DNA from: Meghimatium bilineatum
Taxonomy: Eukaryota > Mollusca > Gastropoda > Stylommatophora > Philomycidae
Length of the DNA: 64,000 bases
NCBI GenBank assembly: GCA_034231615.1
Contig: CM067318.1
Coordinates: 32,009,723 to 32,073,722, forward strand
Direction of reading: 5' to 3'
Both the position numbers and the translations under genes were made by a program. Every line of letters begins with the position of its first letter. Position 1 is the stretch's first letter. Shown here in pieces: positions 16,712 to 54,671 of this stretch. The notes beneath the pieces were generated by a model. That model did not search any database, had not been told where the DNA came from, and saw nothing but the letters and a program-made list of their open reading frames with translations.

Positions 16712-16790
16712 CTTGTAGTAGTTGGTCGTGGTTGGTGAAAGTCCGAACTGCTAAAAACTCATTGCTTGTATCATCAGAGACAGGCTTGAT
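16712..16790 (-). CDS. WDR4: WDR4 exon g ([18 protein letters not shown])
   Basis: The exon is 79 nt with acceptor TATGTGTGTACCAG after a T-rich tract and donor CTACAAG/GTGAGA. It begins in phase 0, which fits exon f, and reads [18 protein letters not shown] and then TNHDQLLQ, ending one base into a codon. This would be the last propeller segment. The assignment rests on phase, position and splice signals more than on residue similarity. Confidence 0.6.
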
Positions 16791-19700
16791 CTGGTACACA
16801 CATAAACAAAACATAATCAGAGGTTTGCAATGATAACTTATCAAATGAAATATTTGTCCTGTGATTTTATCACAAGCAGTGCCATCCTTTACTCGTCATG
16901 CACTATTTTTATTCTTGATAAAGGGTTTTTTGGGTGAAACGTCAATCTGTGACTTTCCAGTGTGACTTCACATGAGCTAAATAATTTATCATTTTTCTCA
17001 AGTTTTGACAGCTAAATCATAGTTTTTCTGCAGTTTTATTTGCTGTGAAATAAAACTTAGCCTTCATCATCATCATCTACCGGACACATGCAAGGACCAC
17101 TTTATACGTGTGATGGCTAGCTGGTACATAAATGGGCTACCTAACACATGCTAAAATGGCAATTCTTACAGCTATCTGGCACATGTTAAAATGGCAATTC
17201 TTACAGCTACCTGGCACATGTTAAAATGGCAATTCTTACAGCTACCTGGCACATGTTAAAATGGCAATTCTTACAGCTACTTGACATGTTAAAATGACAA
17301 TTCTAACAGCTTTTATCTTATAAATATCTACATACCTGAACAATGCCTTCCACTGACTGTACCCGGTATGCTGAAACACTCAGCCTTGACATTCCTTGCC
17401 TGACAACCCAGACAACACTGTCGCTAACACACAAGCTGACAACAATATCCTGACCACTCATAACAGAGATAAGTTGTGTGGTTAAATGACCGTTGTCACC
17501 TGCATCCAATAGCTTGTATGCCAAAATGTGAGGGCATCTATGGGCAGAAATAATAGAGAATATTAAGAGATTTCATATTCATTATTTCTTAAGAGTAATT
17601 TTTGGGAAGTTGAACCTTTCCATGCGCACTTTGTACATTTGTTGAACTAGCCTATTAAAATATAGACAATTTTTAGTTGCAGCTGAGCTAACTTCTTGAA
17701 TTGTTGGATTATTGAATTGTTGGATTATTAAATTGTTGGATTATTTAATTGTTGGATTATTGAATTGTTGGATGATTGAATTGTTGACAGAAGATAAAAG
17801 TAAAAAAACGAGACAAGACATGCGGTGATAATGACGTTTACACAGAAGACATGTTGTCAGACAATCCTTAGTCACATTCTACGACATGTCTGGAAAGAAG
17901 AGAGTGGATCTATTCTTTGCAACCTGAACTAGAAGCTCAGACCACGTTTGCCACACAGGAAGAAAGGAGGGGGGGGGGGTTTAACACAGCTTTCTTTCAT
18001 GCTCAGAAGACTACAATCTTCAGCCAGAAAGAAATGCTATGAGAAAACGCCTCCTACTCAAGTGGGGGATGTGTGTATGTACAAGCTTTGCTCTACTCAA
18101 GTGGGGGATGTGTGTATGTACAAGCTATGCTCTACTCAAGTGGGGGATGTGTGTATGTACAAGCTATGCTCTACTCAAGTGGGACCGTGTGTGTGTGTGT
18201 ATGTAGACGATATGTTCTACTCAAGCGGGGACATGTGTGTATGTAGAAGCTATGACTACTAAAGTGGAGTCATGTGTGTATGTAGAAGCTATGACTACTA
18301 AAGTGGAGTCATGTGTGCGTGTGTAGACGCTATATTCTACTAAAATGAAACGTGTATGTAGAATCTATGTTCCACCTTTGTATGCAAGCAAACATTCAGT
18401 CACATGAAACCACTGGATGTGTCAAAATTAATTTCTAAAATGCCAGAAAAGATCCAACAATCAGGTATGGACCGTAGTAACACAAATACTAAAGTAATTA
18501 CAGTAAGTAATGTGTGTTACGCAACAACTACAGCTAGTAACAGAAAGATGATAAATATAAATATAATAAATTGAATATGGACGAAACGGTTGACGTATGG
18601 ATCGATGTTCAGATGAAGATCATAGATCAAAACGTCAACCGTTTTGTTATTATTCATTTTATTATAATTGTGTTTTTATCATATTTCTATTAGAAGTAGT
18701 TGTATATGTTTGCAGCAATTATTTACTTATTTACTGTAATTGCTTGATGTCATATCAGCGTTAGTCAATTTTGACTACACAGACTGCATGGCTTCACATA
18801 TGTCTGCATGGTTTCAATACAGACAAACCTATAATTTATAAATAATGAAGAATCCATTAAGAAATACCACATTTAAAAACAACAGTAATCTGTTGGGAGA
18901 CAGATAACTGCGATGAAGTTGATGGGGTTGGAGACATACATATGATAACTGCGATGAAGTTGATGGGGTTGGAGACATACATATGATAACTGCGATGAAG
19001 TTGATGAGAATGATAACTGCGATGAAGTTGATGGGGTTGGAGACATACATATGATAACTGCGATGAAGTTGATGGGGTTGGAGACATACATATGATAACT
19101 GCAATGAAGTTGATGGTATTGACGTTGATGGCTAAAGAATGAACACTTTTTTCCTTAAGTCTTGCATGATACCAGGATCCTTCCCCCAACTGTCTACCTT
19201 AGTTCTGTTGTTGACTTTCCTAGGAGCCATGATAGAATTCTATCCAGTATACTCTGCCGTTGTCACCCTGTTTTTTTCTCTCATTTCATTTAACATTGTA
19301 TCCATGATATGTATATTAATCGTTCCTGCAATTCAGTGGTTAGCACACTAGGAGATGACCACAGACTCAATTTAATGATCTGAACAGATAGACTCTTTTA
19401 TAAATGACCACAAACAGATCTAATGGTCTGAGCAGACAGACAAACATACAAACCTATAGAAGACCACACGCAGGATCTAATGAGCAGACAGACAGAAGAA
19501 CGTAAGACTGCCACAAACAGCATCTGATGAGCAGACATACATACTTACTTATAGATGACCACAAACAGGATCTGATGATCTGGGCAGAAAGAAATCTGTT
19601 TAATCGTAGTCTGAGATTGATGACTATCAGACTTGACATCCCTTGGTTCTTTATTATCCACTTGTACTGCATTTACGTCTGTTGAGGTTACACTATCATC

Positions 19701-22700
19701 TAGAGTAGATATATTATAGAGTAGAAAACGAATATATTTATGAAAACAAAGTTAACTTTCTTATGCAATGTGATAACTTACGCTCCGGTTGAACAGTTGC
19801 CTTTGGTGGGATTTAAACCTGATTCGTTGACATACGCTCTGTAGCACTCCGCCACAGAGTCGTACTTATAACAATAAGTGTAGAAGAACAAACGCAGAAC
19901 CCGAACCATAAGACGTCAAACCCTAAAGATCTTACCGAAGCGAAGATCTTAGCACCTATGGGCGTGTGCTATATGGTGTCTGAAGATAATCAATATATCC
20001 AATATATAAATATAAATTAGACAATACCAAGATAGAATGTGTGGATAAATTTGAATACTTAGGAGCAAACATCAACGGTGCAGGAGATTGCATGACAGTA
20101 ATAAGGAAAAGATTGCCAATGACATATTGTAAAATAACACAGTTGAAAAACATACTGAAAAAACAACAACAAAAAAGAAACGAAACTGCTAATGTTACGT
20201 TAACTTTTATTTTTCTGGTTGCATTATACGGCTGTGAAACATGGACCCTAAATAAAATAGCGGCAAAGAAGATCAACGCTTTTCAGATGAAATGCTACAG
20301 AAAGATATTTAGAATATCATGGAAGGAAAAAAAGAGAAACTCAGATATTATAAACACATTATAGATTCCAGAGTGTTGGTTACTAAACACAATAGCAAAA
20401 AGTAAACTACGCCTGTTTGGTTATATAAAGAGACACAACTGTTTAGAAAGATACATAATGGAGGGAAGGGTACCTGGGACGAGGAGAAAGGGCAAACCAA
20501 GAAGACGATGGACAGATGATATTAAAGATAACATGAATACATCGTTGGAAAATGCAAACCGCATCGATCAAGACAGAAGGGGGTTCAGAGAGTTCATTGG
20601 AAGGACAACGTTCTGGAAAGAATACGTCATATGACGAATATAAATTAATTACAAGAATACTTCCATGTGATGACTACACGTGCTCTGAGATATAACATTA
20701 CCAGTAACATTAACAAATAGTTTGTATACAAAAATGATAATAGGCGTCCATCGCAAGCAATGATGATAACAGTTTCAAACACGTTTTGTTGCATCTCTAT
20801 GGTGTGTACGTCTGTCCATGGCAGGGGCTGACGTTTCAAACACGTTTTGTTGCATCTCTATGGTGTGTACGTCTGTCCATGGCAGGGGCTGACGTTTCAA
20901 ACACGTTTTGTTGCATCTCTATGGTGTGTACGTCTGTCCATGGCAGGGGCTGACGTTTCAAACACGTTTTGTTGCATCTCTATGGTGTGTACGTCTGTCC
21001 ATGGCAGGGGCTGACGTTTCAAACACGTTTTGTTGCATCTCTATAGTGTGTGCGGAGATGAGTGAAGAGTCTAATCCTGGCATAGAATTCCCTGTATGCA
21101 AGAATACACTCAACAACGATCACAGCAGCAAGATACGATCCTTTACAGGGTGAGGAACTTCTGGGTTATTTTGGTTTGACCCGCGGAAGGCAAACCGACC
21201 CTGGCCTAAAAATTCTATAAATCTAGTGCATTGTTTCATAGCATTATAAATTTGTATCAAGTGAATCACAAAAATAATAATGTACATACACGCCTCACCA
21301 CAGAGAAGCATCTCCAGCAATCAAATTATGGGTAAGTTACTTAAATGTTTCAGCAAACATTTCTGGCTTATTAAGTTAATAATTGTATATGGCTCGCAAA
21401 TGATGTTATAAATGTACAAATGGTCTTTGGCACACACACACACAAAAGATTACCCCGCCAATGCTTCACAGAGATGGCTCGTGCATAAGCGGTAAAGAAA
21501 CGTGCTACTGAGTTCTACTGCCTACCAACATGGCAGGAAAAGTATTGGGAGAATCTACTGCCTATCATACAATTATATCATGAGAATGGAGATAATGGTG
21601 GTGGCAGCAGAGCTCAAGTGGCTGGTATATCAACTACCAGCACAATCTGTGATTCCAGCACACTTTCAGAGCATGTGGCACTAGATATAATAACAAACAA
21701 GACGTATAATAAGAATCCCGTAGTCCTAACCTTCGATAACAGTTACCATGTTGTTCCGACAGGTCGACGTTGTGCTTGAACTAGATATAGGCACGACGTG
21801 GGTGGGCGGAACAACAAATAAACCTGTCGCAAGGGCAAGAGTTGTGCCCTGATGTCGACGTCTGTTTCGGCTGCATTGGACTAGAAACACCATCGAGTCG
21901 AATGGCTGATTGAACAGAGGGCGGAGCACTTATGGGAATGCCCCACGTGCTGTGAGGCCAGTTTTCTCATCAAGAATCAAGAAGATCACATTTGTCAGCA
22001 TGACAAAACATGACACGAATCTAGTTTCCAGGTCATGAGGGAATCAGAGACAAGTAAAAAAAACAACAACAATGCATAGGCAGGAAACGTAAAAGTAGAT
22101 CAAATGACACAATGGCGAGAAGAGATATCAGTAACTTCATTATGACAGTTATGTCTATTGAAAGTTGTCTTTTTCCAGGTGAATGTTGGTTGGTCATATC
22201 CACACTTTCCGTTGAGAGTATGAGTGGAAGTCTCAGTCGTTTCTCCAAGTCCAGATGTGTCGTTTTGGTTGTGTTGTATCCATGTTTGTTCAAGATTATC
22301 TTGACGTTTTTTATCTAGTTTTTTTGGTCTGTCATTGAGTAATATCCGGATTTATTGCTATATGCTCTTATTGGTATAGTCCATTCTTATCAGGTGACCG
22401 AATAATTGTTCTTCCTTCTGTGTCCAGCCATGTGCACTATAAAGTAATGAAGAGCAGGCTGAAATAGAGAACGTTCATGTTCAGAGAATGGAAGTTACCA
22501 AATGCAAGGGAAGAAAGTGCCACCTCTCTGTGAAGATCTGAAGAATCCAAAGACATGAGGACACTGAACTCATAAACGTTATAATATCTGATGTTCTGGT
22601 GAGCACAGGGAACATATGGGAATGTCCCCAGTGTCATGATGCTGGTTCCTCTTAGTCAAAATTGTATAAACAGTATTTAACCAACGCGTGATATGAATAT

Positions 22701-28700: not shown

Positions 28701-31700
28701 TTCCCCCTTACGGGAGACGTATCTATGATCCTGATGGCAGGTAACTGTGTCAAGCTTCACTTCAATGGTTCACCTCTAGAACAAGTAGGCGGTGCTTGGG
28801 TCTGTCGTTTATAATGAACGTATTGAGTCAGCTGTCCATGTACAGTTCTTCTTTTTCCTCTTCTGTGTTCGGTCTCAAACTCCTGGAGACTAATAGAATG
28901 TAGTCCGGAGAACGGATTGAGTTGTGTCATGACTTACAATATTGCTGTGGTATCTGCGCCTTTCATCCTGACACAGCCGATGAAAGACCCTATATGGGAT
29001 AGGGCAGCCAACTCCACCCCATAACCTCCTTAATCGCCTCTTACAACATGCACGGTAGGTAAATAGCGTTGCTATTCTTTGCTTCCCTCTCGGGCTCCCG
29101 GAAAAACCCGAGCGACGCACAGATGTGTTGATTTACACACGGCGGACACACTCGGCCATGATCACATAGATCTTCCCTATCACTCTACGGGATATGTGGA
29201 CGAAATATCCCGGCGGGCTAAGTCTGGCACGTCAAATCATTTTAACTGACCCTCTAATCCGATTACAAATTACTAATATACTGACCCTCTAATCCGATTA
29301 CAAATTACTAATATACTGACCCTCTAATCCGATTACAAATTACTAATATACTGACCCTCTAATCCGATTACAAATTACTAATATACTGACCCTCTAATCC
29401 GATTACAAATTACTAATATACTGAGTATTGCCGTGACCGGAAAGGAAAACAAATAATAGTGATTATTATCTGCTATACATTTCATAGGAGGCTACTAAGG
29501 AGGTTTTGGGTTTGAGTTGGTTGTTCCATCCCTTATATTGTCAGTGTCCAAAAAAAATGCTGAAGACGGATTTGACCGAACTAAAGGCGCCGATATCGAT
29601 GAATATATGACAAATCAAAAAATAAAAGACGGGTTTTGAACCAAGTCCAAACAGTTGACACAGGAAAAAAACATTTCGAGGCATTTTTTAAGGTTCCATG
29701 GAATGGAATAATATGGAGGAAGGGGGTATGGAAGAAAATTAGTCCCGAAACATGGTCACGGGGGGAAAATAATGCGAGAACCCCTATTTTAAACAGATAA
29801 ATGTGAAAACTTACCCATAGGTATATCTGGCAAAACATTCCTTCGGTGAAGTTCCTTGCCATCAGTGTTCCAGAATCGAACAGTAGCATCCTGGGCGACG
29901 TTCAGGACAGAAAAGGGAAAAAAGGGGGGGGGGTAATATTGGATATTATATTGTGGTAACACAATGAAAATGATTTGAGACGAGACACAATAATTAAAAA
30001 AAGTAATGATAGATAATGTAAGACATGTGAGACATTGGCAGAAAGAAATTAGCAAGGCAGATACAGATACCAGAAGTAAGACGTGAAAACATTGAGACAG
30101 ACACTGAGGCGGACACTACAATGAATGAAAACATTGAGACGAGACACAATAATTAAAAAACGTAATGATAGATAATGTAAGACATGTGAGACATGTAAGA
30201 CATGTGAGACATGTGAGACATGTGAGACATGTGAGACATGTGAGACATGTGAGACATGTGAGACATTGGCAGAAAGAAAATAGCAAGACAGATACAGATA
30301 CCAGAAGTAAGACGTGAAAACATTGAGACGAGACACAATAATTAAAAAACGTAATGATAGATAATGTAAGACATGTGAGACATTGGCAGAAAGAAATTAG
30401 CAAGACAGATACAGATACCAGAAGTAAGACGTGAAAACATTGAGACGAGACACAATAATTAAAAAACGTAATGATAGATAATGTAAGACATGTGAGACAT
30501 TGGCAGAAAGAAATTAGCAAGACAGATACAGATACCAGAAGTAAGACGTGAAAACATTGAGACGAGACACAATAATTAAAAAACGTAATGATAGATAATG
30601 TAAGACATGTGAGACATTGGCAGAAAGAAAATAGCAAGACAGATACAGATACCAGAAGTAAGACGTGAAAACATTGAGACGAGACACAATAATTAAAAAA
30701 CGTAATGATAGATAATGTAAGACATGTGAGACATTGGCAGAAAGAAAATAGCAAGACAGATACAGATACCAGAAGTAAGACGTGAAAACATTGAGACGAG
30801 ACACAATAATTAAAAAACGTAATGATAGATAATGTAAGACATGTGAGACATTGGCAGAAAGAAAATAGCAAGACAGATACAGATACCAGAAGTAAGACGT
30901 GAAAACATTGAGACGAGACACAATAATTAAAAAACGTAATGATAGATAATGTAAGACATGTGAGACATTGGCAGAAAGAAATTAGCAAGACAGATACAGA
31001 TACCAGAAGTAAGACGTGAAAACATTGAGACGAGACACAATAATTAAAAAACGTAATGATAGATAATGTAAGACATGTGAGACATTGGCAGAAAGAAATT
31101 AGCAAGACAGATACAGATACCAGAAGTAAGACGTGAAAACATTGAGACGAGACACAATAATTAAAAAACGTAATGATAGATAATGTAAGACATGTGAGAC
31201 ATTGGCAGAAAGAAATTAGCAAGACAGATACAGATACCAGAAGTAAGACGTGAAAACATTGAGACAGACACTGAGGCGGACACTACAATGAATGAAAACA
31301 TTGAGACAGACACTGAGGCGGACACTACAATGAATGAAAACATTGAGACGAGACACAATAATTAAAAAACGTAATGATAGATAATGTAAGACATGTGAGA
31401 CATTGGCAGAAAGAAAATAACAAGACAGATACAGATACCAGAAGTAAGACGTGAAAACATTGAGACAGACACTGAGGCGGACACTACAATGAATGAAAAC
31501 ATTGAGACGAGACACAATAATTAAAAAACGTAATGATAGATAATGTAAGACATGTGAGACATTGGCAGAAAGAAATTAGCAAGACAGATACAGATACCAG
31601 AAGTAAGACGTGAAAACATTGAGACAGACACTGAGGCGGACACTACAATGAATGAAAACATTGAGACGAGACACAATAATTAAAAAACGTAATGATAGAT

Positions 31701-34700
31701 AATGTAAGACATGTGAGACATTGGCAGAAAGAAATTAGCAAGACAGATACAGATACCAGAAGTAAGACGTGAAAACATTGAGACAGACACTGAGGCGGAC
31801 ACTACAATGAATGAAAACATTGAGACAGACAGTGGAAGACATGGAAACAGACAATAATACAAACTTACAAACATTGAGAGAAAAAACACTGGAAGACACC
31901 GAGACATATATGAATACAAACTTGCAAACATTGAGACAAACACTTGAAGACACCGAGACAGACAGAAATACAAACTTGAAAACATTGAGACAAACACTCG
32001 AAGACACCGAGACATATATGAATACAAACTTGAAAACATTGAGACAAACACTCGAAGACACCGAGACATATATGAATACAAACTTGAAAACATTGAGACA
32101 AACACTGGAAGACAATGAGACATACACTGAAAGAAAGAGAAATACAAGACATAGATAGTGATACTAGAAGACAGACACCGAGAAAGACATGAGAATACTG
32201 CGAACCATACACCACATTGCGCAAAATGGCGAGCACTACAGTAATATATACATCAACAATAACAATAACAAATACAACACCAACACAAACATAAAAACTA
32301 GACTACATAACATGTACTTCTACTGTCAGTTGTACCGTGGCTATCGACAGAATACTACATGCCTTCTAACATAATTAATGAGGCCTTCATTTGTTACTTC
32401 TCTTGATTATTCCCGTGTTTTCTGTTGGCCGATATTTATATACTTGGAATCGAATGCCATAAAATAGCCGAGGCTACTCCAAGTATATACATAGTAACCA
32501 ATAGAAAATGTGACAATAATACAAAAGAACACACTAAATGAAGGCCTGTTTATGTTTAGCAGTCCTCTATATCTGTCGACGGTCACGGCTGTACTGTCCA
32601 AATTAACTTACCCCAGATCCTGACATTAGAATCTTCCTCGTTTCGTCATAAGCAAGAGACACAACAAACCTGTATTCAAACCAAGCAAAAACATGTATTT
32701 GTCACATGAAAGATAACGTCATTTCATAATTTCAAAATGTTAGTACAATATAACAGAGAAAACTTGATTTACAGCCATTAGATCTATTTCCACAATGACT
32801 ATTTTCTTAGATCTATTTCCACAATGACTATTTTCTTAGATCTATTTCCACAATGACTATTTTCTAATACAGTGTGCACCATTCTTCTTCTTGTTGTAGT
32901 CCAGGACGTGTGGCGTTAGTTATCATGGCTCTCAACGGCCTTCTATTTCATATGTGCTGTCAGTCATTTCCAATACAAATATCCTCCCATGCCACAACGC
33001 CAGGTTGTCACACATCTCTCGTAATCTTCCTTTATCACTCTTGCTCCTCGGCATGCTTATTGTTACGATGCGCCCTATTTTTCCTCCTACCTTGATTTTG
33101 ACGTTCTTCCCGTTAACAGGATTATTGCGTGTGGGCATGGTTATTTTCTGTGCACTAATACTCACAGTAGATTGTAGTTTCTGTGAGGGCAGTTATCAAG
33201 TGGACGTGTTATCCTAGCTCATAGGTTCCCAAACTGTTTCGAGCCACCGCCCACTTTGCAAGACATACATGTCGTAACCCCCCCCCCCCCCAATTATAAC
33301 AGTTTTACGCGGTCAGAATTGTTATTTTTTTAATGTTACATTACTACTTTTCCCGTGAAATTATTGAAAAGTAGTGACGAATATGTGACTTGAACACAAA
33401 TTTTCTTCTGATTTTTGTTAAAACATAGCCCAGATATAAAAATTGTAAAGTGTGTGCTCAAATAACATTATGCAGTTTCATACAAAGGTTTACCGCCGAA
33501 AACGGATGTGCCGGGTCAATAGCGCAAATAAAACGGCGACACAACGTATTTTCATTCTCTGGAAAAAAAACCTGCTGAAAATCTTGTAGGATCATTGTCC
33601 TGCTACAAGAGAGATTCAGCGGGATTTTGAGAATGAACTTTGAAGATTATAAAGAAGACACACTGACCTAAATATGAACACTCGGTGTACATATTCAGAG
33701 ATTGCGCTACATTAGTAAGAATCTTATTGTAATAATTAAAACACCATCAAATAATATGAAAAAAGAATTAATGTGAAGAAGGGTCCTGGTGTATTTTTAA
33801 AAGTGCGCTAATGTCGGGTTCAACCTTCGTTAAAAACAGTCGTAAATCGCCACGCTCAGTTAATTAGTTATATGCAATCGGGGTTTTTTTCTTAGAAAGT
33901 AAAATCGCTATAGCAATAAATCCAGTCTCAGCCAAATAGGACGATGGAAACGCAATCAATAATTTGAAATAATCAATTAATCAATTTTGAAATGATTAAA
34001 TAATCACAATAGAAAATTTATGAAAAATTGGATCGAGTAAGATGACATAAGATGAATTAAAATGAAGAATTAAAATTTTAAATGATTATCCAATCGCAAA
34101 ATCACGAAAATAATTGAACTATCTTTAATTAATTTCTTCTATATAGATTCACCAACCTCTAGACCGTTCGAACGACCCCCAATTGTTTCTGGAAACCCCC
34201 CCCCCCCCCAACCCAGAAGACTTCAACACCCACTGGAGCGGTAACGCCCACTTTGGGAACCTATGTCCTAGCCATTATGCCTATAATTTCATGCACTACC
34301 TAACACAACTGAAGTGGTGACCAGTACTGAAAATCAAGTAGGAAGCATGAGGATAAATTACAATTTTTTAGACCTACAGGAATTGAACCAGATTTGTTCC
34401 AGCTGCACCGAACCGCCCCGCAATTCGAACAAGCCCCTACGCACCTGACCAACCACCCCCCCCCCGGAATAAATACAAACCCGTCAAGACATTAAAACTA
34501 TGCACTCAAGTCAATGAGAACGGACCAATCGAGACAATTACTACCACAAGAACAACGAACATCCCATCCCGCACAATCACTTAAGCACCCCCAGGACGTT
34601 ACCGTTAGTTTCAGGAACCAGTACTGAAACAATTTCTCAGCTGATCGCCACTTCTACCTATCATTACCTTGCCGCGACTTCACGTTTTTATCCGTCTCAG

Positions 34701-37700: not shown

Positions 37701-38423
37701 AATTGTAGCTGTGCATGTACTATCAACATATATATTGCATATGTGCTTGTACTGATGTATGTTTTTATATAATTGTATGTTTTTGTGATGAATCTGTACA
37801 TGTACTGCTGGATCTGTGTAAGGAATGTTATATTTGCGTTTTAAATTTTCTAAATCTGAAAGTGTACTGTTGTATCTTTTTTGTTTTTGTGTGTGTTTGT
37901 GTGCGTGCGTGTATGATATATATATATATGATTGTGTGTACTGCTATACCTGTATGTCAACTGTATTGTAACTGTGTATGTCCTTTCTAATCTGTGTATG
38001 TACAGTTATATCTCTGTATGTAGTGTTATATATATGTGAGTACTGGTTTGTGTACTGTTGAATATGTGGGGTATACTGTTATATCCGTGTGTATTGTTCT
38101 ATCTTTGCATACTGTTGTATCTGTGTGTGTATCTGCGCGTAGTCTGCTATATATGGGTGTGTACTGTTGTGTATATTCCGTGCACTGTTGTACTTGTGTG
38201 TATCTATTGTTGTTTATGTGCGTGTACTTATGTATACGTGTGTATTACGTTATGTGCGTGTGTAGAGCTGCATGTTTTGGCTTTTGCTGTATGTATTTGT
38301 GTGCGTAGATGAATATATTAGATACACAAATTAGATAGATAGATATATATATATATAGATAGATAGATAGATAGATAGATAGATGGATAGATAGATAGAT
38401 GATAGATAGATAGATGATAGATG

Positions 38424-38458
<35 letters not shown>

Positions 38459-38491
38459 GGATGGATGAATGGATGGATGGATGGATAGATG

Positions 38492-38542
<51 letters not shown>

Positions 38543-38609
38543 GGATGGATGGATGGATGGATGGATGGATAGATAGATATAAGATAGATAGATAGATAGA
38601 TGATAGATG

Positions 38610-38648
<39 letters not shown>

Positions 38649-38673
38649 GGATGGATGAATGGATGGATGGATG

Positions 38674-38736
<63 letters not shown>

Positions 38737-41700
38737 GGATGGATGGATGGATGGATAGATAGATAAATGTATTGGATATATTAAATATATATATAGATGT
38801 GCTAATTCCCATCTAAGGAAACTGACATCAAAACTCTGAAGCCCCACACGCACGCTAAAGTAGCTCCTAACAAACAATTAGACTGAAAGGTTTCTGCGGG
38901 GAACAAACATTTAGTAGAACATATACAACTTTATTTTTAAAATGTAGATAATTAAGCTGGATTTAAAACGCAATCTTGAGCTCCAATCACCCATACGATT
39001 AATCGCAAGAGTGGATAACAAACCACCTGGGGAAAGACAATAGACATTAGATAGATAATTAAGACACTATCGCACACAATAACGTATTATGGCAACTTCC
39101 ACCGGCAAAGCAGTGGTCGTGTTCTGCCACCGATATCTTCCCTAGTTAAATAAAAAGAGCAGAGGATACACTGTCATGCTACTGGCCGAAAGTTTAATTA
39201 TATTGGCACTAACAGAGACCTTCGACAATATGCGACCTATTGTCTTATGATAAAACAACCTTCTAAATTGACTCATTTGGCTTGTCTTGTAATTATATTG
39301 GCTGTCTACACAAAGAATAATCATAGTGACCAGTAAAAATTACGGGTAAAGTCAAATGAATCATTTTAGAAGGCTCTTTTGCCATTAGGCAACAGGTTTT
39401 ATATTGGTGACGCTCTCGCACTAACATACAAAAGCACGAGGAGCTGTCAAGACCAAACTCTTGTAAGCAAATCGTCCAACTGTCTTGGTCTCTGGCGACA
39501 AATGACAATGTGGCAATCAGCTCCGGCTGTGTACGCGATCAATACTATTTTACTCTCGGTTTACCGTGGCTTATTGTTGCTGCTATTAGGTAATTACGAT
39601 TCGGTGATTTCCTGCAACAAGGGCTTGATTGTTTGAATTGCTGAATTATGACCTTTGATGTCTGTAGAATGTGTGCTCAATGTGCTCTTTTACTTCAGCA
39701 TTTTATTTTACTTACTGCTAGATAATCCAGCTTATGCATATGTGTATGTGGAGTGGGGTGGCGTCCTAGGGCTCTTTTTTTCTTATACATACGAGAATTC
39801 AGCACTTGGCTAAATGTCATGCCTACTGAAGTCCTCTACTCGGAGGGAATCACGTCTCAGCGTTAAGAGTGGGCAGTCTCACAAAACCAACTTCAGTAGA
39901 ATTAGTTCGCGGATCGAATGCTTATCGTCCATATTGTACTAGCGATACTATAATAATATTTTAGTGTTGCTTAAACATTCAGGGTAACTACTTGGCGTGG
40001 TGGTTAAACCGTTCGCTGTGTGCAAAACAGGTCGTGGGTTCAAATATTGTAAGCAACACTGTTTATAAAGTGGATTTTCTCGGAGTAACTTGGGGTTGTC
40101 GCTTGAGCATGACCGTCTCCAATAAAGACATTTCATCAGAACTAATTAGGTCCCCCATTGGTTACGTTTTTGATTACCGTTGGAATTTCGATTGGTCACT
40201 ATTTACATACTTGGATCCGCATGCCAAAAATAGCATAGGCGACTCCAAATATATATAAATAGTTTCCAACCGAAATCCAAACAAGGACCCCGGTTCGGTC
40301 ACGTGACAATTCTAGATAACATGTCCTACTATACTCTGTTCACTCTAAGAATGAAGAAGGTCAAAACATACCCTCATATTGCTGTCCTCGACAAAGGGTG
40401 AGTTTAAAGAGTTGATGACGTAAAAGCAATATTATTTACATTTAAAAACAATATTTCAACAACATTAAAAAACACATTTAGAAACGAAACTTAAAAACAA
40501 TATTATTGGGCACTTAATAATCGATTAACGCGTTCTGCGTTCAACAACCAATCAGAAACTCTGACAAAATTCATTCTTAAAGTGAACAGAGTACAGAGAC
40601 TGTGTTGCTTGAAGTTACAGAGTCATGTGCTATCAGTGGTACACTGAAGTCAATCCTCTACGCCAGTTGGACTCGTTCTAAAAATAAATAAATTCAACAA
40701 TGGTTGAAAAGCAATGTCCTATACACGGTAACCGGACAAAATATATCCAAAACAAATTACACAGATAATATATGAAACATTTTATATAAACTGTAATGAA
40801 CAATATAACAAGTAAATATTTATAATAAAGTCTTCAAATGACATGAATTGTCTCATACGTCATAGACATGAAATTAAGTTACTGGCTGGGTGTAAGACAG
40901 AGAGAGATTTCTGGATTGGTTGTCAAGCGGCACAAAAAGAAGTCACCAACTAAACTTATTAACAACACAAGAGACAGAGTTGTGGAGAAGCATGATCGCC
41001 TACGCCACTCGGTACGTAGTGTGCTGACTACGCCACTTGATTTATTGGGTTTACTATATAGCATTAATGTTCAAAACACGTGCTATGTTTTTCAAGAAGA
41101 TGACAGGTTCTGCTGGATCGTACCGTTCAATCATTGCTTTAATAGCATCATCGAGACATTGGTAAACTTTTCGTTTCTTTGTTGTTGGTTGACCAGTGGC
41201 AATCTTACTTCCCAGTAGTGCAGATGTATGTTGTTGCTGCATCTTCCTGGCAAGTCTTGCTGCTGTTGGATGAGATACGTTCATCATTGAATTAAATGAA
41301 TTGTGCCAAACTTCTACAGCATTGTTGCTTTTTGGCAGTTTATTCATGACACAATTGTGTTGACTCCAAGGGTTCCCTGGAAATCCAGGCTGCGAACGAC
41401 GACCACGACAAACTCGTCCAATGTATTAATCTTCAAAGTAATCGATGAGGAAATCCAGTCTAAGAAACTGTCAATATTGGTGAGTTGTTAATGACAACGG
41501 TTTGCGGCACACATATCAAAGCCATCAGTTGTTTTACTCTGATTGTATAATTGTCATTAGAAATGTACAACGCTCACTTTTGCCGTCAGATTGCAGTTTT
41601 CACCAAAATTTCTGTCAAAAGTGAAAATAACATCCTGATATTTGAGCTCGTGGAAATGCATTCTCAGAATCACGGATTGTATGCAGTTGATCGAATGAGG

Positions 41701-43662
41701 GAATGTTTCATCGACAAACCAATGTCGCTCTGACAAATAAATCAACATGTTACTGTGCTGCAAACAGAACGAAATTTGGTTCTATTACGCTCAGAATGAG
41801 ACAGCCACCAACTATATTTCTATATTCGTCAATGACTTGATCATTGATTACATTTCCTTGACGACATCTCCAAATATCCCTAGTTAGAGATTATTGTTCA
41901 GTTCGAAGGTGTGCATGCTGGATTTATACGTGTCTTAAAGCCTACTGCACAATGAATCTTGTGTGTTACTCTATACTTTCAGCACGTTGCCTCATTTTTT
42001 TGTTGCCTCACGTTGCCATGCAAAAATTTCCAGTATACCAGTCCCTTATTCTTACTCACTCATAGGGACACACCTGGTGGATGTACATATAGAATAGTCC
42101 TTTTTATTACGTTTCACAGGACTTTTAATAAATGCCTCTAATCGATCATTTTGTTTGAATCTATCTTTTTTTTCAACTACACGTGGCAGACAGGCACTAG
42201 CTTCAATGAAAAAAGTCAGCCAATAAACAATTCTAAATCTGAACAAAGTTACACCTTACTCATGTACGAATGGCTTGGAGGTACTTCGAATCACTCAACT
42301 AAAACGTTGACATAGCCTACTACTAGAAATATTTCCATTGAAATACTATTGTCTATTCCCAGGTGAATGATTGTTGATCGCATTCACACTTGTCGTTAAG
42401 CGTAGGGGTGATATCTTAAGCTGTCGTTTCAAAGGCCAGATGTGTCGCCGAGGTTGCATTTAGTCCATGTTTGTTCAAGGTTATCTTAATGTTTTCTATA
42501 TTAGACAATAATTAACTTGTTGAATGTGGTCTAGAGACACTAATCAACTTACTGTGTGTGATCTAGAGACACTAATCAACTTACTGTGTGTGGTCTAGAG
42601 ACACGAATTAACTTACTGTGTGTGGTCTAGAGACACGAATTAACTTACTGTGTGTGGTCTAGAGACACTAATTAACTTATTGTATGTGGTCTAGAGACAC
42701 TAATTAACTTACTGTGTGTGGTCTAGAGACACTAATCAACATACTGTGTGTGGTCTAGAGACACTAATTAACTTACTGTGTGTGACCCAGACAGAATGCC
42801 TGGATGTTGTGTGCATCTGGATAATGGCTGATTCTAATCTTTTCATCCCTGTCACATGTCGCAACGAACTTGTCACAGTCAACCATCAGCTGTGAACAAC
42901 AGAAGTTAGCAACTAATAGCTGTCACAGTAACATAGAGACACAGTCCAGCCAGAACAGTTATCTCATGAACACATTGCGGCAAAATTTCTGGTCATTTTT
43001 TTAAAATGTACATGAGATGAGGAGTTGGCTAAAGTACATGAGATGAGGAGTTGGCTAAAGTACATGAGATGAGGAGTTGGCTAAAGTACATGAGATGAGG
43101 AGTTGGCTAAAGTACATGAGATGAGGAGTTGGCTAAAGTACATGAGATGAGGAGTTGGCTAAAGTACATGAGATGAGGAGTTGGCTAAAGTACATGAGAT
43201 GAGGAGTTGGCTAAAGTACATGAGATGAGGAGTTGGCTAATGTACATGAGATGAGAAGTTGGCTAATGTACATAAGATGAGGAGTTGGCTAACGTACATG
43301 AGTAGGTGGCTAATGTACATACGATGAGGAGTTGGCTAACATACATAAGATGAGGAGTTGGCTAACGTACATGAGATGAGAAGTTGGCTAATGTACATGA
43401 GACAATGACCAATGTATAAGACAACAAACTTACCACATCTATAAGCATTGAATGATGGCCTAACAGAAGTGAGCCTCCTCTACTGTCGTTCTTGTCCTGA
43501 CTATCTACAACTCCATCTTCAACTTCCTGTAACGATCCCTCAAAGTTGCTCTTTGACACCTGACCCGTAACTTGATCAATGACATTGAAGGCATATGCGT
43601 CCCCTGATTTGTCAGCAACAATGACGCACTCGTTGTCTCTAGTTATGGTTGCAGAAGTGCAT
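16712..43662 (-). CDS. WDR4: WDR4 gene (partial, at least seven exons): WD40 subunit of the tRNA m7G46 methyltransferase
   Basis: This is the only host gene I can support. WDR4 (yeast Trm82, fly Wuho) is a nuclear WD40 beta-propeller protein that stabilises METTL1/Trm8, the enzyme making m7G at position 46 of tRNAs. Seven minus-strand exons, listed separately, give about 278 residues in the correct family order: [15 protein letters not shown], then GHHSMLIDV, then [48 protein letters not shown] and [11 protein letters not shown]. All listed borders are GT-AG. Phases agree at 43434/42889, 42777/32669, 32612/29890, 29815/27471 and 17336/16790. They disagree at 27395/17537, so a small exon of length 3n+2 is probably missing. 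About 90 N-terminal residues (expected above 43.7 kb) and the usual lysine-rich C-terminus were not located. Introns carry minisatellites, MITEs and retroelement fragments. Family identity is secure by eye; whether the locus is intact is not. Confidence 0.9.
16915..16975 (+). other. CTTGATAAAGG...GAAACGTC motif
   Basis: CTTGATAAAGG, TTTTTTGGG and TGAAACGTC occur in order. A related block is at 34900-34945 (CTTGATAAAAGCCTTTTGGA, then CGAAACATCG). Similar blocks are common near ends of Penelope-like and other retroelements in invertebrates. It may be a degenerate terminus. Confidence 0.35.
17115..17312. repeat. 35-bp minisatellite next to the WDR4 exon f donor
   Basis: About five units with CATGTTAAAATGGCAATTCT. 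On the minus strand each unit has CAGGTAGCTGTAAG, which resembles the exon's own CAG/GTATGT. The array begins about 24 bp past the donor. Confidence 0.9.
17336..17537 (-). CDS. WDR4: WDR4 exon f ([11 protein letters not shown]...VQSVEGIVQ)
   Basis: The exon is 202 nt with acceptor TTATTTCTGCCCATAG and donor GTTCAG/GTATGT. After one completing base it reads [18 protein letters not shown], then a stretch with [14 protein letters not shown], ending [11 protein letters not shown] in phase 0. Position and pattern match the penultimate WD blade of WDR4 (PVVYIFQLD ... VWDVAFEETQGLWVL). Similarity is weaker than in the upstream exons, but the reading frame is open over the whole exon and the splice signals are good. 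A 35-bp array starts about 24 bp beyond the donor. Confidence 0.75.
17694..17786. repeat. 16-bp minisatellite, about 6 copies
   Basis: Unit GAATTGTTGGATTATT. Confidence 0.92.
18050..18350. repeat. ~39-bp minisatellite, about 7 copies
   Basis: Unit with CTACTCAAGTGGGGGATGTG and TGTATGTACAAGCTATG. The last copies are diverged. Confidence 0.9.
18570..18650 (+). repeat. Inverted repeat with a TGAAGATC...AAACGTC core
   Basis: CGAAACGGTTGACGT and ACGTCAACCGTTTTG can pair over about 15 bp around a loop containing GATGAAGATCATAGATC. See the findings for possible links to 16915-16950 and 34900-34945. Confidence 0.6.
18900..19112. repeat. 41-bp minisatellite, about 5 copies
   Basis: Unit with GATAACTGCGATGAAGTTGA and GGGGTTGGAGACATACATAT; one copy is shortened. 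Confidence 0.93.
19375..19605. repeat. ~60-bp degenerate repeat, about 4 copies
   Basis: Units carry GACCACAAACAGATCTAATG and GAGCAGACAGACA. Confidence 0.75.
19790..19866 (-). mobile_element. tRNA-derived SINE fragment
   Basis: The minus strand has GTGGCGGAGTGCTACAGAGC and GGTTTAAATCCC, A- and B-box-like. The same head occurs at 45195-45305. Confidence 0.5.
20010..20640 (+). mobile_element. Non-LTR retrotransposon ORF2 C-terminal remnant (family with TTFWKE end)
   Basis: A 107-codon frame (20041-20364) contains [40 protein letters not shown] and [11 protein letters not shown]. After a break it continues [19 protein letters not shown] and [18 protein letters not shown], ending [10 protein letters not shown]. 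This is the complete post-RT C-terminal region of an RTE/Jockey-like element. The copy at 56330-56750 shares RRW-TD-IKD and TTFWKE, so both belong to one family. Confidence 0.85.
20772..21050. repeat. 61-bp minisatellite, about 4.5 copies
   Basis: Unit with TTTCAAACACGTTTTGTTGC and CTGTCCATGGCAGGGGCTGA; copies nearly identical. Confidence 0.95.
21051..22164. other. Unassigned intron sequence
   Basis: A segment with GCGGAGCACTTATGGGAATG near 21920 recurs at about 27700 and about 22610, indicating a weak dispersed repeat. No gene seen. Confidence 0.45.
22165..22325 (+). repeat. Dispersed repeat D3 copy 1
   Basis: CCAGGTGAATGTTGGTTGGT, CCAGATGTGTCG and TCCATGTTTGTTCAAG are shared in order with 42355-42505. 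Confidence 0.6.
22790..23215 (-). mobile_element. Non-LTR retrotransposon ORF2 C-terminal remnant, minus strand
   Basis: Reading the minus strand gives [39 protein letters not shown] and a terminal AISRGLFYP before a stop. This is the RDR-[IV]-RNE-DI ... YI...IKWF ... GRPR signature. It is homologous to the copy at 23985-24285. On the plus strand the two copies share GTCAGGGGTAGAAGAGT. Confidence 0.75.
23640..23935 (-). repeat. Dispersed repeat D1, well preserved
   Basis: On the plus strand it reads CAACTAAGGAGGTTATGGGA, GCAATGCTGTAAACCATGAC and CTGCAGGAGTTTGAGAACGA, the reverse of D1. It abuts the minus-strand ORF2 remnant at 23985-24285. Confidence 0.8.
23985..24285 (-). mobile_element. 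Non-LTR retrotransposon ORF2 C-terminal remnant, minus strand, followed by a D1 repeat
   Basis: The minus strand reads [20 protein letters not shown], then [19 protein letters not shown], then [12 protein letters not shown] with a stop, then IRWTTEIK and ISR-LFYP. The continuation downstream on the minus strand (23990 to 23640) is a D1 repeat in the same order. D1 may therefore be the 3' untranslated tail of this family or a repeat that exploits it. Confidence 0.78.
24262..24332. repeat. 19-bp repeat, about 4 copies
   Basis: Unit CGATATTCCTATGACTTAG. The unit seems to arise at the edge of the ORF2 remnant (CTCTTAGCGATATTCC). Confidence 0.9.
24435..24755. repeat. 47/48-bp minisatellite, about 6.5 copies
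   Basis: Unit with ATATCATTGAGTTGGTTTAT and TTTCAACTCATCTCAAC, alternating by one T. Confidence 0.93.
24756..25949. other. Unassigned intron sequence
   Basis: No tandem repeat or recognised element. This is the largest unannotated block between WDR4 exons e and f and a place to look for the missing exon. Confidence 0.45.
25950..26880. repeat. 32-bp minisatellite, more than 25 copies, diverged at its left side
   Basis: Core GGTGTAATAATGAAGGTAGG, then AAATGGAGTGTA. Left-hand copies are degenerate, right-hand copies homogeneous. Minus-strand frames of 171, 165 and 129 codons are by-products. Confidence 0.93.
27072..27375. repeat. 26-bp minisatellite next to the WDR4 exon e donor
   Basis: About nine clean units with ATAGAGATGGAGGGAACTAT, then degenerate ones up to ~27375, about 20 bp from the proposed donor of exon e. 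Confidence 0.92.
27395..27471 (-). CDS. WDR4: WDR4 exon e ([14 protein letters not shown])
   Basis: The exon is 77 nt with a strong acceptor, TGCTTTCTTTTCTCAG. Two bases complete the Ala codon opened by exon d, then the frame reads [20 protein letters not shown] and continues DMTWA. The family has [21 protein letters not shown] here, and the core agreement is SR-[IL]-x-[IF]-S. The chosen donor, GGGCA/GTATAT, leaves phase 0, but the next exon found needs two incoming bases. Either a small exon lies between them, or this donor is wrong. An array of 26-bp units starts about 20 bp beyond the donor. Confidence 0.72.
28195..28445 (-). repeat. Dispersed repeat D2 copy 1, with protein-like conservation
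   Basis: On the minus strand this reads [19 protein letters not shown] in one frame and, after a shift, [20 protein letters not shown] then ET...MFWPEK. The copy at 59805-60065 has the equivalent peptide, so the repeat may descend from a coding element. I cannot name the family. Confidence 0.6.
28855..29125 (+). repeat. Dispersed repeat D1, well preserved
   Basis: GGTCTCAAACTCCTGGAGAC, GTAGTCCGGAGAACGGATTG and CATAACCTCCTTAATCGCC follow the D1 order. The 3' end has CTCTCGGGCTCCCGG with a CTCGGG/CCCGAG stem. Confidence 0.8.
29252..29422. repeat. 35-bp minisatellite, about 5 copies
   Basis: Identical units with CTGACCCTCTAATCCGATTA and CAAATTACTAATATA. Confidence 0.95.
29815..29890 (-). CDS. 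WDR4: WDR4 exon d ([17 protein letters not shown])
   Basis: The exon is 76 nt, with acceptor GTCGCCCAG and donor CTATGG/GTAAGT. It starts in phase 0, so the junction with exon c reads [21 protein letters not shown], equivalent to SSGDGTLRLWEYRSGRQLH. This is a classic WD40 D-x-x-[VL]-[RK]-[FL]-W strand. It ends one base into a codon. The 117-bp array ends about 95 bp upstream of its acceptor. Confidence 0.9.
29985..31800. repeat. 117-bp satellite-like array in a WDR4 intron, about 14 copies
   Basis: Units contain GACGTGAAAACATTGAGACG, GTAATGATAGATAATGTAAG and ACATTGGCAGAAAGAAATTA. Some units carry an extra ~42-bp module (ACAGACACTGAGGCGGACAC), and one a run of GACATGTGA repeats. A 368-codon minus-strand frame stays open because 117 is divisible by three. 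Confidence 0.97.
31800..32155. repeat. ~54-bp array continuous with the 117-bp array
   Basis: Units carry AACATTGAGACAAACACTCG and AAGACACCGAGACATATATG. They share AACATTGAGACA with the 117-bp unit, so the two arrays probably have a common origin. Confidence 0.9.
32378..32556. mobile_element. Palindromic MITE, family P1 (clearest copy)
   Basis: Both ends read AGGCCTTCATTTRTK inward, followed by a shared TTTTCTRTTGG and TATATACTTGG. The arms are about 85 bp. It lies in the WDR4 intron between exon c and the 117-bp array. Confidence 0.8.
32612..32669 (-). CDS. WDR4: WDR4 exon c ([19 protein letters not shown])
   Basis: The exon is 58 nt, with acceptor GAATACAG and donor TCTGGG/GTAAGT. Its first base completes CAG (Gln) from exon b, and it then reads [19 protein letters not shown], corresponding to [20 protein letters not shown] in vertebrate WDR4. 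It ends in phase 0. The intron before it is about 10.1 kb; the one after it is about 2.7 kb and holds a palindromic MITE and the 117-bp array. Confidence 0.88.
32785..32865. repeat. 28-bp repeat, about 3 copies
   Basis: Unit with TTAGATCTATTTCCACAATG. Confidence 0.9.
33220..34265. mobile_element. Longer non-autonomous hAT-like element with 8-bp TSD
   Basis: Ends are CATAGGTTCCCAAA and the same reversed. Flanks are TCCTAGCT (33212-33219) and TCCTAGCC (34266-34273). The 1.05-kb interior is AT-rich with poly-C runs near both ends and holds no transposase frame. It contains a D1-like fragment (33530-33650). It sits in the WDR4 intron between exons b and c. Confidence 0.85.
34274..35384. other. 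Unassigned intron sequence with a lone hAT-like end
   Basis: CAGTGGTTCTCAAC at about 34717 has no visible partner. A D1-like fragment lies near 35200-35300. Otherwise nothing. Confidence 0.4.
34900..34960 (+). other. Second CTTGATAAAAGCC...CGAAACATCG motif
   Basis: Same order as at 16915, with an 8-bp possible stem (AAGCC/GGA mismatched) around TTTT. Confidence 0.35.
35385..35545. repeat. 43-bp repeat, about 4 copies
   Basis: Unit with GGGTAGTAATTGTTCGCAGA and AGAAGAAACGTGTACAACAG. Confidence 0.9.
36080..36417. repeat. 42-bp minisatellite, about 8 copies
   Basis: Unit with GGAAAATAGTAAATACAATC and CTGATATAAATAAAGCGA. The 135-codon minus-strand frame is a by-product of the 42-bp period. Confidence 0.94.
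36705..36803. mobile_element. Short palindromic copy, family P1
   Basis: CATTGGTCACTG...CAGCCAATAG is an eroded form of the P1 centre with the same GGTCACT arm. Confidence 0.4.
36840..37165 (+). repeat. Dispersed repeat D1
   Basis: CGTTCTCACGCTTCTGAAGA, TTTTATGGGATGGGACATTA and CACCTTAGTCGCCTTGTACG match D1. The copy is in a WDR4 intron. Confidence 0.75.
37280..38320. repeat. Degenerate ~20-bp array (TGTACTGTTGTATCTGTG type), about 1 kb
   Basis: Loose repeats of TGTACTGTTGTATCTGTGTG. Cysteine- and valine-rich frames on both strands arise from it. Confidence 0.85.
38325..38768. repeat. (GATA)n/(GATG)n tetranucleotide array
   Basis: Alternating blocks of GATA and GATG repeats. The block pattern itself is repeated (about 38400-38580 and 38600-38760), pointing to a larger duplication. 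Frames with YLSI/HPSI repeats are by-products. Confidence 0.97.
39255..39386. mobile_element. Palindromic MITE, family P2, second copy
   Basis: CCTTCTAAATTGACTCATTT at the left mirrors CCTTCTAAAATGATTCATTT at the right. The centre (reversed) has GGTCACTATGATTATTCTTT, matching the P2 centre at 55.7 kb. Confidence 0.65.
39985..40135 (+). mobile_element. tRNA-derived SINE, head plus body start
   Basis: GGCGTGGTGGTTAAACCGTT and GTGGGTTCAAAT form the Pol III promoter-like head. TAAAGTGGATTTTCTCGGAG and TGTCGCTTGAG begin the shared body of this SINE family. Confidence 0.75.
40155..40300. mobile_element. Palindromic MITE, family P1
   Basis: The left arm GATTGGTCACTATTTACATA matches the reverse complement of the right arm (GGTTGGAAACTATTTATATA). 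Outside these, TTTCG and GGTCC-type sequence are also mirrored. It lies next to a tRNA-derived SINE. Confidence 0.75.
40595..40680 (+). mobile_element. SINE body fragment
   Basis: GCTTGAAGTTACAGAGTCATG then TATCAGTGGTAC and CTGAAGTCAA match the body and tail of the copy at 61235-61465, without a head. Confidence 0.55.
40880..41025 (+). mobile_element. Short retroelement 3' fragment
   Basis: It shares GGCACAAAAAG, ACAAGAGACAGAG and TGATCGCCTACGCC with the 3' parts of the copies at 14835-15312 and 46795-47172. In one frame it reads [20 protein letters not shown]. Confidence 0.55.
41054..41765 (-). mobile_element. MULE/FLYWCH-type transposase remnant
   Basis: The minus strand encodes [16 protein letters not shown] near 41.7 kb, equivalent to the HWFVDGTF motif that holds the first catalytic Asp of MULE transposases. 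Near 41.3 kb it encodes [15 protein letters not shown] followed by SVSHP-like [15 protein letters not shown] and [15 protein letters not shown]. The LPR-[ST]-NN-xVEGWH block is the usual C-terminal part. The region between has frameshifts and the second catalytic residues are not visible, so the copy is dead. It is the only transposase-like protein sequence I see here. Confidence 0.75.
42355..42508 (+). repeat. Dispersed repeat D3 copy 2
   Basis: CCAGGTGAATGATTGTTGAT, CCAGATGTGTCGC and TCCATGTTTGTTCAAG match copy 1. It ends where the 32-bp array of exon b's intron begins. Confidence 0.6.
42513..42785. repeat. 32-bp array duplicating the WDR4 exon b splice donor
   Basis: About 8.5 units. On the minus strand each intact unit starts CACACACAGTAAGTT, identical to the exon b donor with its last exonic bases, then continues AATTAGTGTCTCTAGAC. 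At least six downstream copies keep a GT donor; one copy (CAATAAGTT) has lost it. Confidence 0.92.
42777..42889 (-). CDS. WDR4: WDR4 exon b (DRDEKIRIS blade)
   Basis: The exon is 113 nt. The acceptor is TTCTGTTGTTCACAG and the donor CACACACA/GTAAGTT. It starts in phase 0 and ends two bases into a codon. The peptide contains [16 protein letters not shown] and ends FCLGHT, matching the family's LTADRDEKIRVS...FCLGHTEFVS. The donor is the first unit of a 32-bp tandem array that repeats both the end of the exon and the splice site into the intron (see the array at 42513-42785). Confidence 0.9.
43008..43412. repeat. 26-bp minisatellite next to the WDR4 exon a donor, about 15 copies
   Basis: Unit with GTACATGAGATGAGGAGTTG and GCTAAA. 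It starts about 23 bp past the donor. Confidence 0.95.
43434..43662 (-). CDS. WDR4: WDR4 exon a (first one found; WD repeats with VIVADKSGD)
   Basis: The exon is 229 nt. The acceptor is ..CCACAG and the donor GATGTG/GTAAGT. It begins with one base completing a split codon, reads [20 protein letters not shown] and ends in phase 0 with GHHSMLIDV. The vertebrate counterpart, as I know the family, is RRCTALTF..VLVADKSGDVYSFSV..LGHLSMLLDV. Between the two conserved blocks there is an acidic, serine-rich linker of about 35 residues, longer than in vertebrates, probably a surface loop between propeller blades. An array of 26-bp units begins about 23 bp downstream of the donor. Confidence 0.9.
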
Positions 43663-43767
43663 CTGTGGACTAAAGGGCTGTAAAAACGTGGGGTGGGAGA
43701 CGAATCGTGTATTAGAAATACGATTTTTAAAGAAAAAAGCACAATATGTAATTTACATGTGCGCTAT

Positions 43768-44030
43768 TTCTGAAAACTCTCGGAGATTACCAGGCCAAAG
43801 AATACATAGAAAACGTTCTGCCACGGTTTACAGTTTAGCTTCGATATCTGAAGTTTTCGCACCTAAACGTTCGAATTCAGCATAGCTTATGGTCACCGTG
43901 ACCGTTTTTAAGTTGGAACAAAAGTCGAGATCCCACATCTCCTTAGTCGCATTTTGCGGCATGCATGGCATATCACAAAATCTCTATTCTTGCTTTCCTA
44001 TCAGACCCTGGTAACACTGGAGCATGTAAA
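43768..44030 (+). repeat. Dispersed repeat D1, diverged
   Basis: GAAAACTCTCGGAGATTACC, GCCACGGTTTACAG and CATCTCCTTAGTCGCATTTT keep the D1 order. Confidence 0.65.
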
Positions 44031-44229
44031 AAGCTGTAAACAAGCTGTTTATTTACAAGCTGCCAAACATGTCTCACCATTTTGATAGATGGAAATTGTA
44101 AATAATGCTTGTGAATCTACAACATTGAGCATCCTACAAGACATGTCATGAGGGAGAACTCAAACAAGAGTTACGCATATAACCAGAAGAAAACCCACAC
44201 AGATGGTCCATGACCGGACTCCAGTATAA

Positions 44230-44982: not shown

Positions 44983-45194
44983 AAATAACAAAAACTGATT
45001 AACTCGTCCAAAAAAAATAATAATTAAGATGGACGAGTAAACTTGTGTTTAGCAGATACAGGGTTAAAACTGAATAATAGTTAAATACGAAGTACGTAGT
45101 TTAAATACGCAGCAAACAAACCTTTGATTTACCTGTATTGATTTGTTAAGTGACATAAATACGTTCAGTAGTTTGCATTTATATGTACCGCTGG

Positions 45195-54632: not shown

Positions 54633-54671
<39 letters not shown>

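Follow-up and report, generated by a model that had tools for sequence, protein, structure and literature searches.

Duplicated 5' splice sites compete with one another in model transcripts. Among the closest described systems are human segmental duplications, in which, according to the accessible part of the report, internal tandem repeats with a unit of 30 bp on average alter gene structure at the exon-intron boundary (PMC2812944). Birth of introns by tandem duplication is also known, and the available part of the source that describes it also sets out an AGGT model. Minisatellites have been described within intron 1 of earthworm metallothionein (PMC12783039), and G-quadruplex motifs are enriched ~3-fold near splice junctions (PMC9065059), as given in the available portions of these two papers. 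A literature search, for which subscription papers were mostly outside reach, found no publication measuring minisatellites around splice sites.

Here we compare with these systems a 64,000-bp stretch of DNA (G000:C21:32009723-32073722, in an assembly of 1.61 Gb and 32 contigs), which as a whole is called the window below and which carries a WDR4 gene with minisatellites beside several of its donors. Like earthworm metallothionein, this gene has minisatellite arrays in an invertebrate intron, whereas the available part of the earthworm report states no link of its arrays with a donor or an exon end (PMC12783039). Like the G-quadruplex motifs, as far as the available text on these goes, the repeats are a class of sequence enriched by splice junctions, but here the class consists of tandem arrays (PMC9065059).

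Materials and Methods

The profile used to search for WDR4 was built including exons a and b, so its matches to these two exons are not independent evidence. Exons c to g were placed by their order, open frame, splice signals, and phase.

For comparison, 108 exons of the same genome were picked without regard to arrays. They comprise 100 kinesin exons (100 of the 123 PF00225 matches) and 8 WD40 exons (8 of 150 scored matches), taken best scoring first rather than at random. All of them had at least 300 bp of fetched DNA on both sides. Because the flanks of the pieces fetched later are only 300 bp long, the far baseline comes from the first loci. Splice sites were predicted close to the ends of each protein match, with a weight matrix resembling the human one. 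The score cut was passed by 79 of 108 donors and 91 of 108 acceptors, and the profiles exclude the 29 donors and 17 acceptors below it. Two exons belonging to a near-identical duplicate were then removed, which left 106 exons in 46 gene clusters, with 78 donors and 89 acceptors. The count of border copies, the interspersed-repeat mask, and the per-batch replication counts used all 108 exons, including the near-identical duplicate. Near-identical kinesin exons were seen at L037 and L038 (C21:50178478 and C21:50304900) and at L034 and L033 (C21:50194495 and C21:50317598), ~123 to 126 kb apart. With their matching flanking arrays, they represent either a segmental duplication of recent origin or a haplotypic duplicate within the assembly.

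Cut-offs were fixed when the distances were first measured; the 150-bp limit was chosen afterwards, and the bins are post hoc. Interspersed repeats were masked by all-against-all comparison, which marked 29% of the fetched DNA plus the window, a value that is a lower bound. The scope of the sample is one main gene family, with predicted splice sites and a partial repeat mask.

Results

The window contains a real WDR4 gene, with seven exons on the minus strand (Table 1) whose phases agree at 6 of 6 junctions (a-b 0, b-c 2, c-d 0, d-e 1, e-f 2, and f-g 0). Exons a and b together match PDB WDR4 chains at 3.9e-19 and yeast Trm82 at 7.2e-9, a sequence match to the WDR4 beta-propeller, and in tblastn with human WDR4 they are found at 1.2e-5 (exon a) and 1.7e-8 (exon b). 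Taken singly, exons c to g have no significant match in tblastn with human WDR4 or in the profile search, where exon d (E = 3.1) ranks among chance matches. By our own reading of the translations, joined exons c-d and e-f seem to resemble blades of human WDR4. N- and C-terminal WDR4 exons were not recognized within the 64,000-bp window by tblastn or profile search, and a Pfam scan of two of the three minus frames of ~44,001-58,994 found no family. A candidate for exon e near ~27,400, beside another 26-bp array, was rejected since it has no WDR4 likeness and the wrong phase; the end at 19,549 fits instead.

Table 1. WDR4 exons and donor-side arrays (window positions) and sampled exons with exon sequence in an adjoining array (contig positions)
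Feature	Position	Strand	Description
WDR4 exon a	43434..43677 (alternative start 43662)	-	Ends GATGTG/GTAAGT, phase 0; PDB WDR4 match, tblastn, donor
WDR4 exon b	42777..42889	-	Ends CACACA/GTAAGT, phase 2; PDB match, tblastn
WDR4 exon c	32612..32669	-	Order, frame, splice signals, phase
WDR4 exon d	29815..29890	-	Order, frame, splice signals, phase; large array starts 85 bp upstream of acceptor
WDR4 exon e	19549..19699 (alternative start 19678)	-	Ends CTATAA/GTAAGT, phase 2
WDR4 exon f	17336..17537	-	Ends GTTCAG/GTATGT, phase 0
WDR4 exon g	16712..16790	-	Ends TACAAG/GTGAGA
Array at exon a	43008..43402	-	26-bp minisatellite x 15.4; starts 31 bp inside intron
Array at exon b	42503..42784	-	32-bp minisatellite x 8.8; unit holds exon b end (CACACACA, ~8 nt) and donor
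Array at exon e	19437..19578	-	Diverged, 48-bp unit x 3.0 at 76%; holds donor and last ~30 nt of exon e
Array at exon f	17136..17311	-	35-bp minisatellite x 5.1; starts 24 bp inside intron
L044	C21:5036174		47-bp unit, codons of HIPYRDSKLTRLLQ plus GTAAG (42 coding bases); eight near-identical copies
L080	C10:9003327		52-bp unit, ~42 coding nt plus GTAAGTAGTC; ~7 copies; reaches end of fetched piece
L081	C10:8998374		56-bp unit x 3.8, 12 exon nt; donor below score cut
L074	C24:59965962		42-bp unit, four diverged copies, ~17 exon nt; donor below score cut
L087	C25:56743189		Array includes 7 exon nt

The window is rich in arrays: TRF gave 112 rows, which merge into 55 arrays with a period of at least 7 and cover 16,435 of the 64,000 bp. 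Four of the seven WDR4 donors (a, b, e, and f) have an array no more than 31 bp away. The arrays at b and e overlap the donor, and the next downstream arrays at c, d, and g are 465, 390, and 382 bp away, so that these three donors have no array within 380 bp. By unit size and copy number, the arrays at a, b, e, and f are all minisatellites (Table 1). The sequence-only reading of the window that preceded this work had described arrays beginning 0 to 25 bp inside the intron after these four exons, with units of 26, 32, 26, and 35 bp. The four donors stand, as do the units at a, b, and f, but array a begins farther in than 25 bp and the TRF unit at e is 48 bp.

In two of the four arrays, the unit includes the exon border. 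As had been claimed for exon b, the donor is repeated together with ~8 nt of the exon: array b consists of nine units of CACACACAGTAAGTTAATTAGTGTCTCTAG with few changes, the first CACACACA coming from the exon. Array e contains three to four diverged copies of CATCAGATCCTGTTTGTGGTCATCTATAAGTAAGTATG, which is the exon end plus the donor. A 30-mer taken across the exon border matches the repeat unit at 27/30 positions for exon b and 25/30 for exon e, and at just 15 and 16 of 30 for exons a and f. Fuzzy homology of arrays a and f with their own exon ends also gave no significant result, either against shuffles (P = 0.34 and 0.21) or against random window regions (P = 0.44 and 0.08). The motif CAGGTAG, which had been attributed to every unit at exon f, is present in 2 units only.

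It had also been argued that random placement would not favor the donor side four times. For at least 4 of 7 donors to have an array edge no more than 35 bp away, the probability is 3.5e-4 when compared with random positions in 16,000-44,500, 0.0018 at the rate of the genome sample (7/78), and 0.012 when that rate is scaled to the array density of the window; every one of these values is post hoc. Taken as a whole, the original observation holds with corrections and is partly confirmed.

On the acceptor side, the gaps to the nearest array are 1104, 116, 107, 85, 1070, 156, and 345 bp for exons a to g, respectively, so arrays lie fairly near several acceptors too. A complex array of 117-bp units (window 29975-32146) stops 85 bp before the exon d acceptor, which is thus crowded as well. 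Elsewhere in the window, positions 8161-10664 hold a 2.5-kb array of a 49-bp unit, with ~50 copies at 96 to 98% matches and higher-order periods of 100 and 149 bp. At 14125-14387, a 66-bp unit includes a tRNA B-box-like stretch (GGTTCGACTCC) and is perhaps a tandem SINE fragment. Open stretches at 19990-20634 and 46738-47169 appear, by our own reading, to resemble the C-terminal part of a non-LTR retrotransposon reverse transcriptase.

The first kinesin loci of the genome sample, 251,524 bp in all, have 0.52 arrays per kb, and 11% of their length is in arrays. A comparison of the distances from arrays to donors and to acceptors had been proposed as a check, with enrichment at donors only as the supporting outcome. 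In the sample, 18 donor-facing array edges lie at 0 to 150 bp, 7 of them in the first 50 bp, versus 4.5 expected from the density at 300 to 1450 bp, which is a ratio of 4.0 (bootstrap by gene cluster, 2.4 to 7.0; 78 donors). There are also 14 acceptor-facing edges at 0 to 150 bp versus 6.3 expected, which is a ratio of 2.2 (bootstrap, 1.1 to 4.1; 89 acceptors). The predicted donor excess is present, but enrichment at donors only is not supported. Edge density after donors is 1.79, 1.28, and 1.54 per kb at 0 to 50, 50 to 100, and 100 to 150 bp, compared with 0.39 per kb at 300 to 1450 bp. The donor ratio is 4.9 and 5.3 with stricter arrays and 4.3 with strong splice sites only; under stricter settings the acceptor ratio is 2.0 to 2.8, and two of its three bootstrap intervals include 1. 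An edge between -60 and 150 bp is found at 22 of 78 donors and 16 of 89 acceptors, and an edge between -60 and 35 bp at 7 of 78 and 5 of 89, respectively. Array coverage at 100 to 280 bp is 0.230 on the donor side and 0.121 on the acceptor side (P for a difference of ≤0, 0.012; over 0 to 280 bp, 0.016), and the difference is not significant at 0 to 50 bp (P = 0.08) or at 50 to 150 bp (P = 0.06).

The closeness of arrays to exons replicates in the 30 later kinesin exons; the lean toward donors does not. Arrays between -60 and 150 bp are present at 14 of 49 donors and 8 of 57 acceptors in the first 70 kinesin exons, and it is from these exons that the donor lean comes. The 30 later kinesin exons, which were fetched after the idea had been formed, have near arrays at 8 of 24 donors and 9 of 28 acceptors, and with the two sides alike the expectation of donor-only enrichment is not supported. 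In the 8 WD40 exons, the counts are 1 of 6 donors and 0 of 6 acceptors. WDR4 is a dense example of an exon-proximal array trend in the sampled genes, and the observation made there generalizes among these genes as an exon-proximal excess. At one kinesin acceptor (L046, C21:41855833), a 38-bp unit x 20 stops 2 nt before the acceptor, and the unit resembles part of a pyrimidine tract.

One possible explanation for the excess is passive. If interspersed repeats are kept out of exon flanks and arrays are diluted in deep introns, both sides of the exon will look enriched and donors need not be special. Detected interspersed repeats do drop toward donors, from ~0.40 of non-array bases at 600 to 1450 bp to 0.04 at 10 to 50 bp and 0.15 at 50 to 150 bp after donors. 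Outside interspersed repeats, array coverage is 0.22 to 0.29 at 50 to 300 bp after donors versus 0.126 at 600 to 1450 bp, and the near/far coverage ratio at donors is ~2 after mask correction, compared with ~2.7 before it. At acceptors, near and far coverage are 0.11 to 0.13 versus 0.10 uncorrected and 0.16 versus 0.169 corrected, so that no excess is left, and the likeness of the two sides in the later exons also fits. These lower corrected ratios indicate that the distribution of interspersed repeats explains part of the near-exon excess. However, approximately twofold donor coverage is left after correction, and array edges per non-interspersed base are still denser near exons, with near/far ratios of 2.9 at donors and 1.6 at acceptors. 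The remaining excess could vanish under a fuller repeat mask, and we regard passive dilution as a possible explanation of the whole pattern, although a somewhat doubtful one.

A second explanation, offered by the sequence-only reading, is that new arrays arise by mutation preferentially in donor-proximal DNA, for instance by way of R-loops or of replication slippage in a gene that is being transcribed. The donor-side excess of array edges (18 versus 4.5) is what a birthplace would give, and the sense-strand skew of G over C is 0.31 in donor-proximal units, compared with 0.16 in far units and 0.10 near acceptors. However, WDR4 arrays a and b have units that are not rich in G, and non-array intron near donors is also slightly G-skewed (0.06 to 0.10); the skew may hint at R-loops but does not demonstrate them.

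The copying of exon borders argues further against a birthplace at donors. A border 30-mer is copied nearby at ≥22/30 positions for 3 of 79 donors and 1 of 91 acceptors, compared with 41 of 295 random intron points. The border 30-mer matches within the array at 30/30 for both L044 and L080, and one of the three copied donor borders (C9:47541107, 24/30) lies outside any TRF array. Copying is thus less frequent at the donor border than at random points of the intron, so the donor as such is not favored by arrays, and duplication of borders below the level of bulk intron fits what selection would predict. Donor words in arrays are not in excess genome-wide either: tandem AGGTAAGT is no more frequent than the reversed word (3,223 versus 3,728 and 4,779 versus 5,647), a control that consists of one word and is uncorrected for single-word frequency. 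Donor-like words (score, ≥3.5) occur in the sense orientation in 4 of 21 donor-proximal units and in the antisense orientation in 0 of 21, which is suggestive only; the corresponding sense and antisense counts are 1 and 1 of 16 in acceptor-proximal units and 5 and 3 of 80 in far units. Because retention in DNA poor in interspersed repeats accounts for part of the excess, a preferred birthplace at donors is not shown, and we consider it unlikely. The original interpretation is, overall, partly supported.

In 5 of the 108 sampled exons, the repeat unit contains coding sequence plus the donor, and in two of these there are 7 to 8 near-identical copies (Table 1). The array at L076 begins 1 nt before the donor. 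On the acceptor side, arrays reach into two called exons, by 8 nt at L011 and by 41 nt (1.9 copies) at L044 C21:5042028; the arrays at L045 and at L044 C21:5035024 overlap the match start and are ambiguous. The exons on either side of the introns that hold these copies follow one another in order, which speaks for introns that existed beforehand.

Such donor ladders might have a function, offering decoys or alternative 5' splice sites by which splicing is tuned. Donors farther down the array that score at least as well as the real one number 5 in WDR4 b (equal score), 7 in L044, 5 in L080, and 3 in L076, as a function of this kind would allow. However, the arrays of WDR4 a, e, and f, L087, and L006 contain no downstream donor as good as the real one, and those of WDR4 e and L087 have no downstream site with a score of ≥2, as neutral decay predicts. 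Moreover, read-through past the first donor soon reaches a stop: immediately in WDR4 b and e, after 30 nt in L044 and 57 nt in L080, and within 5 to 90 nt in WDR4 a and f and in five sampled cases tested. None of the unit lengths 32, 47, and 52 bp is divisible by 3. Judged by these reading frames, a working protein would need the exon-side donor, and the first of the near-identical donors appears to be the one that must be used. We regard a role of the ladders in tuning splicing as very unlikely.

That the WDR4 pattern is a mere coincidence, noticed post hoc in a repeat-rich window, would accord with the array density of the window and with a scaled P of only 0.012 after donor, distance, and gene had been chosen by eye, but other genes of the same genome also have arrays close to exons, and we find coincidence scarcely credible.

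Discussion

We tentatively favor the explanation that exon-proximal arrays are shaped by tolerance at donors plus exclusion of other insertions. We place it only slightly ahead of passive dilution, and it falls a little short of being probable. Under tolerance plus exclusion, short tandem duplications would form widely across the non-coding DNA of the genome and would then pass two filters. The first 100 to 200 bp of the intron, which are measurably poorer in interspersed repeats (by a mask that is a lower bound), would be left to arrays. In addition, a duplication starting at or spanning the donor would keep the exon-side copy joined to an intact donor, at low cost if the cell cuts at the first donor. 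Repeated rounds could then build arrays whose units carry copies of the donor or the exon end, such as those of WDR4 exons b and e and of the five sampled exons in Table 1. Duplication at an acceptor would copy the branch point, pyrimidine tract, and AG or move them apart; this may be tolerated less well, a difference between donors and acceptors that the data leave unsettled. WDR4 lies in an array-dense region and would supply four such cases, two of them spanning the donor. Several results count against tolerance plus exclusion: the donor lean is unreplicated, donor borders are under-copied, tandem donor words are not in excess, and arrays a and f are unlike their exon ends.

It is conceivable, but on the whole improbable, that exon ends have been repeatedly duplicated into the adjacent intron genome-wide, giving several per cent of introns a donor ladder at their start. 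In some ladders the surroundings of the donors would be near-identical, and the splicing machinery would have to select the copy on the exon side. If this were true, donor choice would be set by position rather than by sequence, and donor flanks would be a tolerated minisatellite nursery. The exon-proximal excess, if confirmed genome-wide, would mean that exon flanks gather tandem arrays while other insertions stay out. The ladders, for example the 8 near-identical kinesin copies with 42 coding bases plus GTAAG, would serve as natural experiments on the choice among equal-strength splice sites.

Like the model transcripts with duplicated 5' splice sites, the ladders present several identical donors to one acceptor. 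They differ in that they are natural, have up to 8 copies, and require the exon-side copy for the frame. Like the repeats in human segmental duplications (PMC2812944), the arrays have minisatellite-sized units at an exon-intron boundary. In the available part of that report, however, the repeats are variable, belong to primate-specific paralogues, and are said to create novel introns, whereas the genes here are old and conserved, their exons are retained, and the repeat copies are found on the intron side. As in the birth of introns by tandem duplication, to the extent that the available part of its source describes it, the exon-intron boundary is crossed and splice signals are copied. There, a single duplication at an acceptor gives rise to a new intron; in contrast, here the intron probably existed beforehand and its donor end has been duplicated many times.
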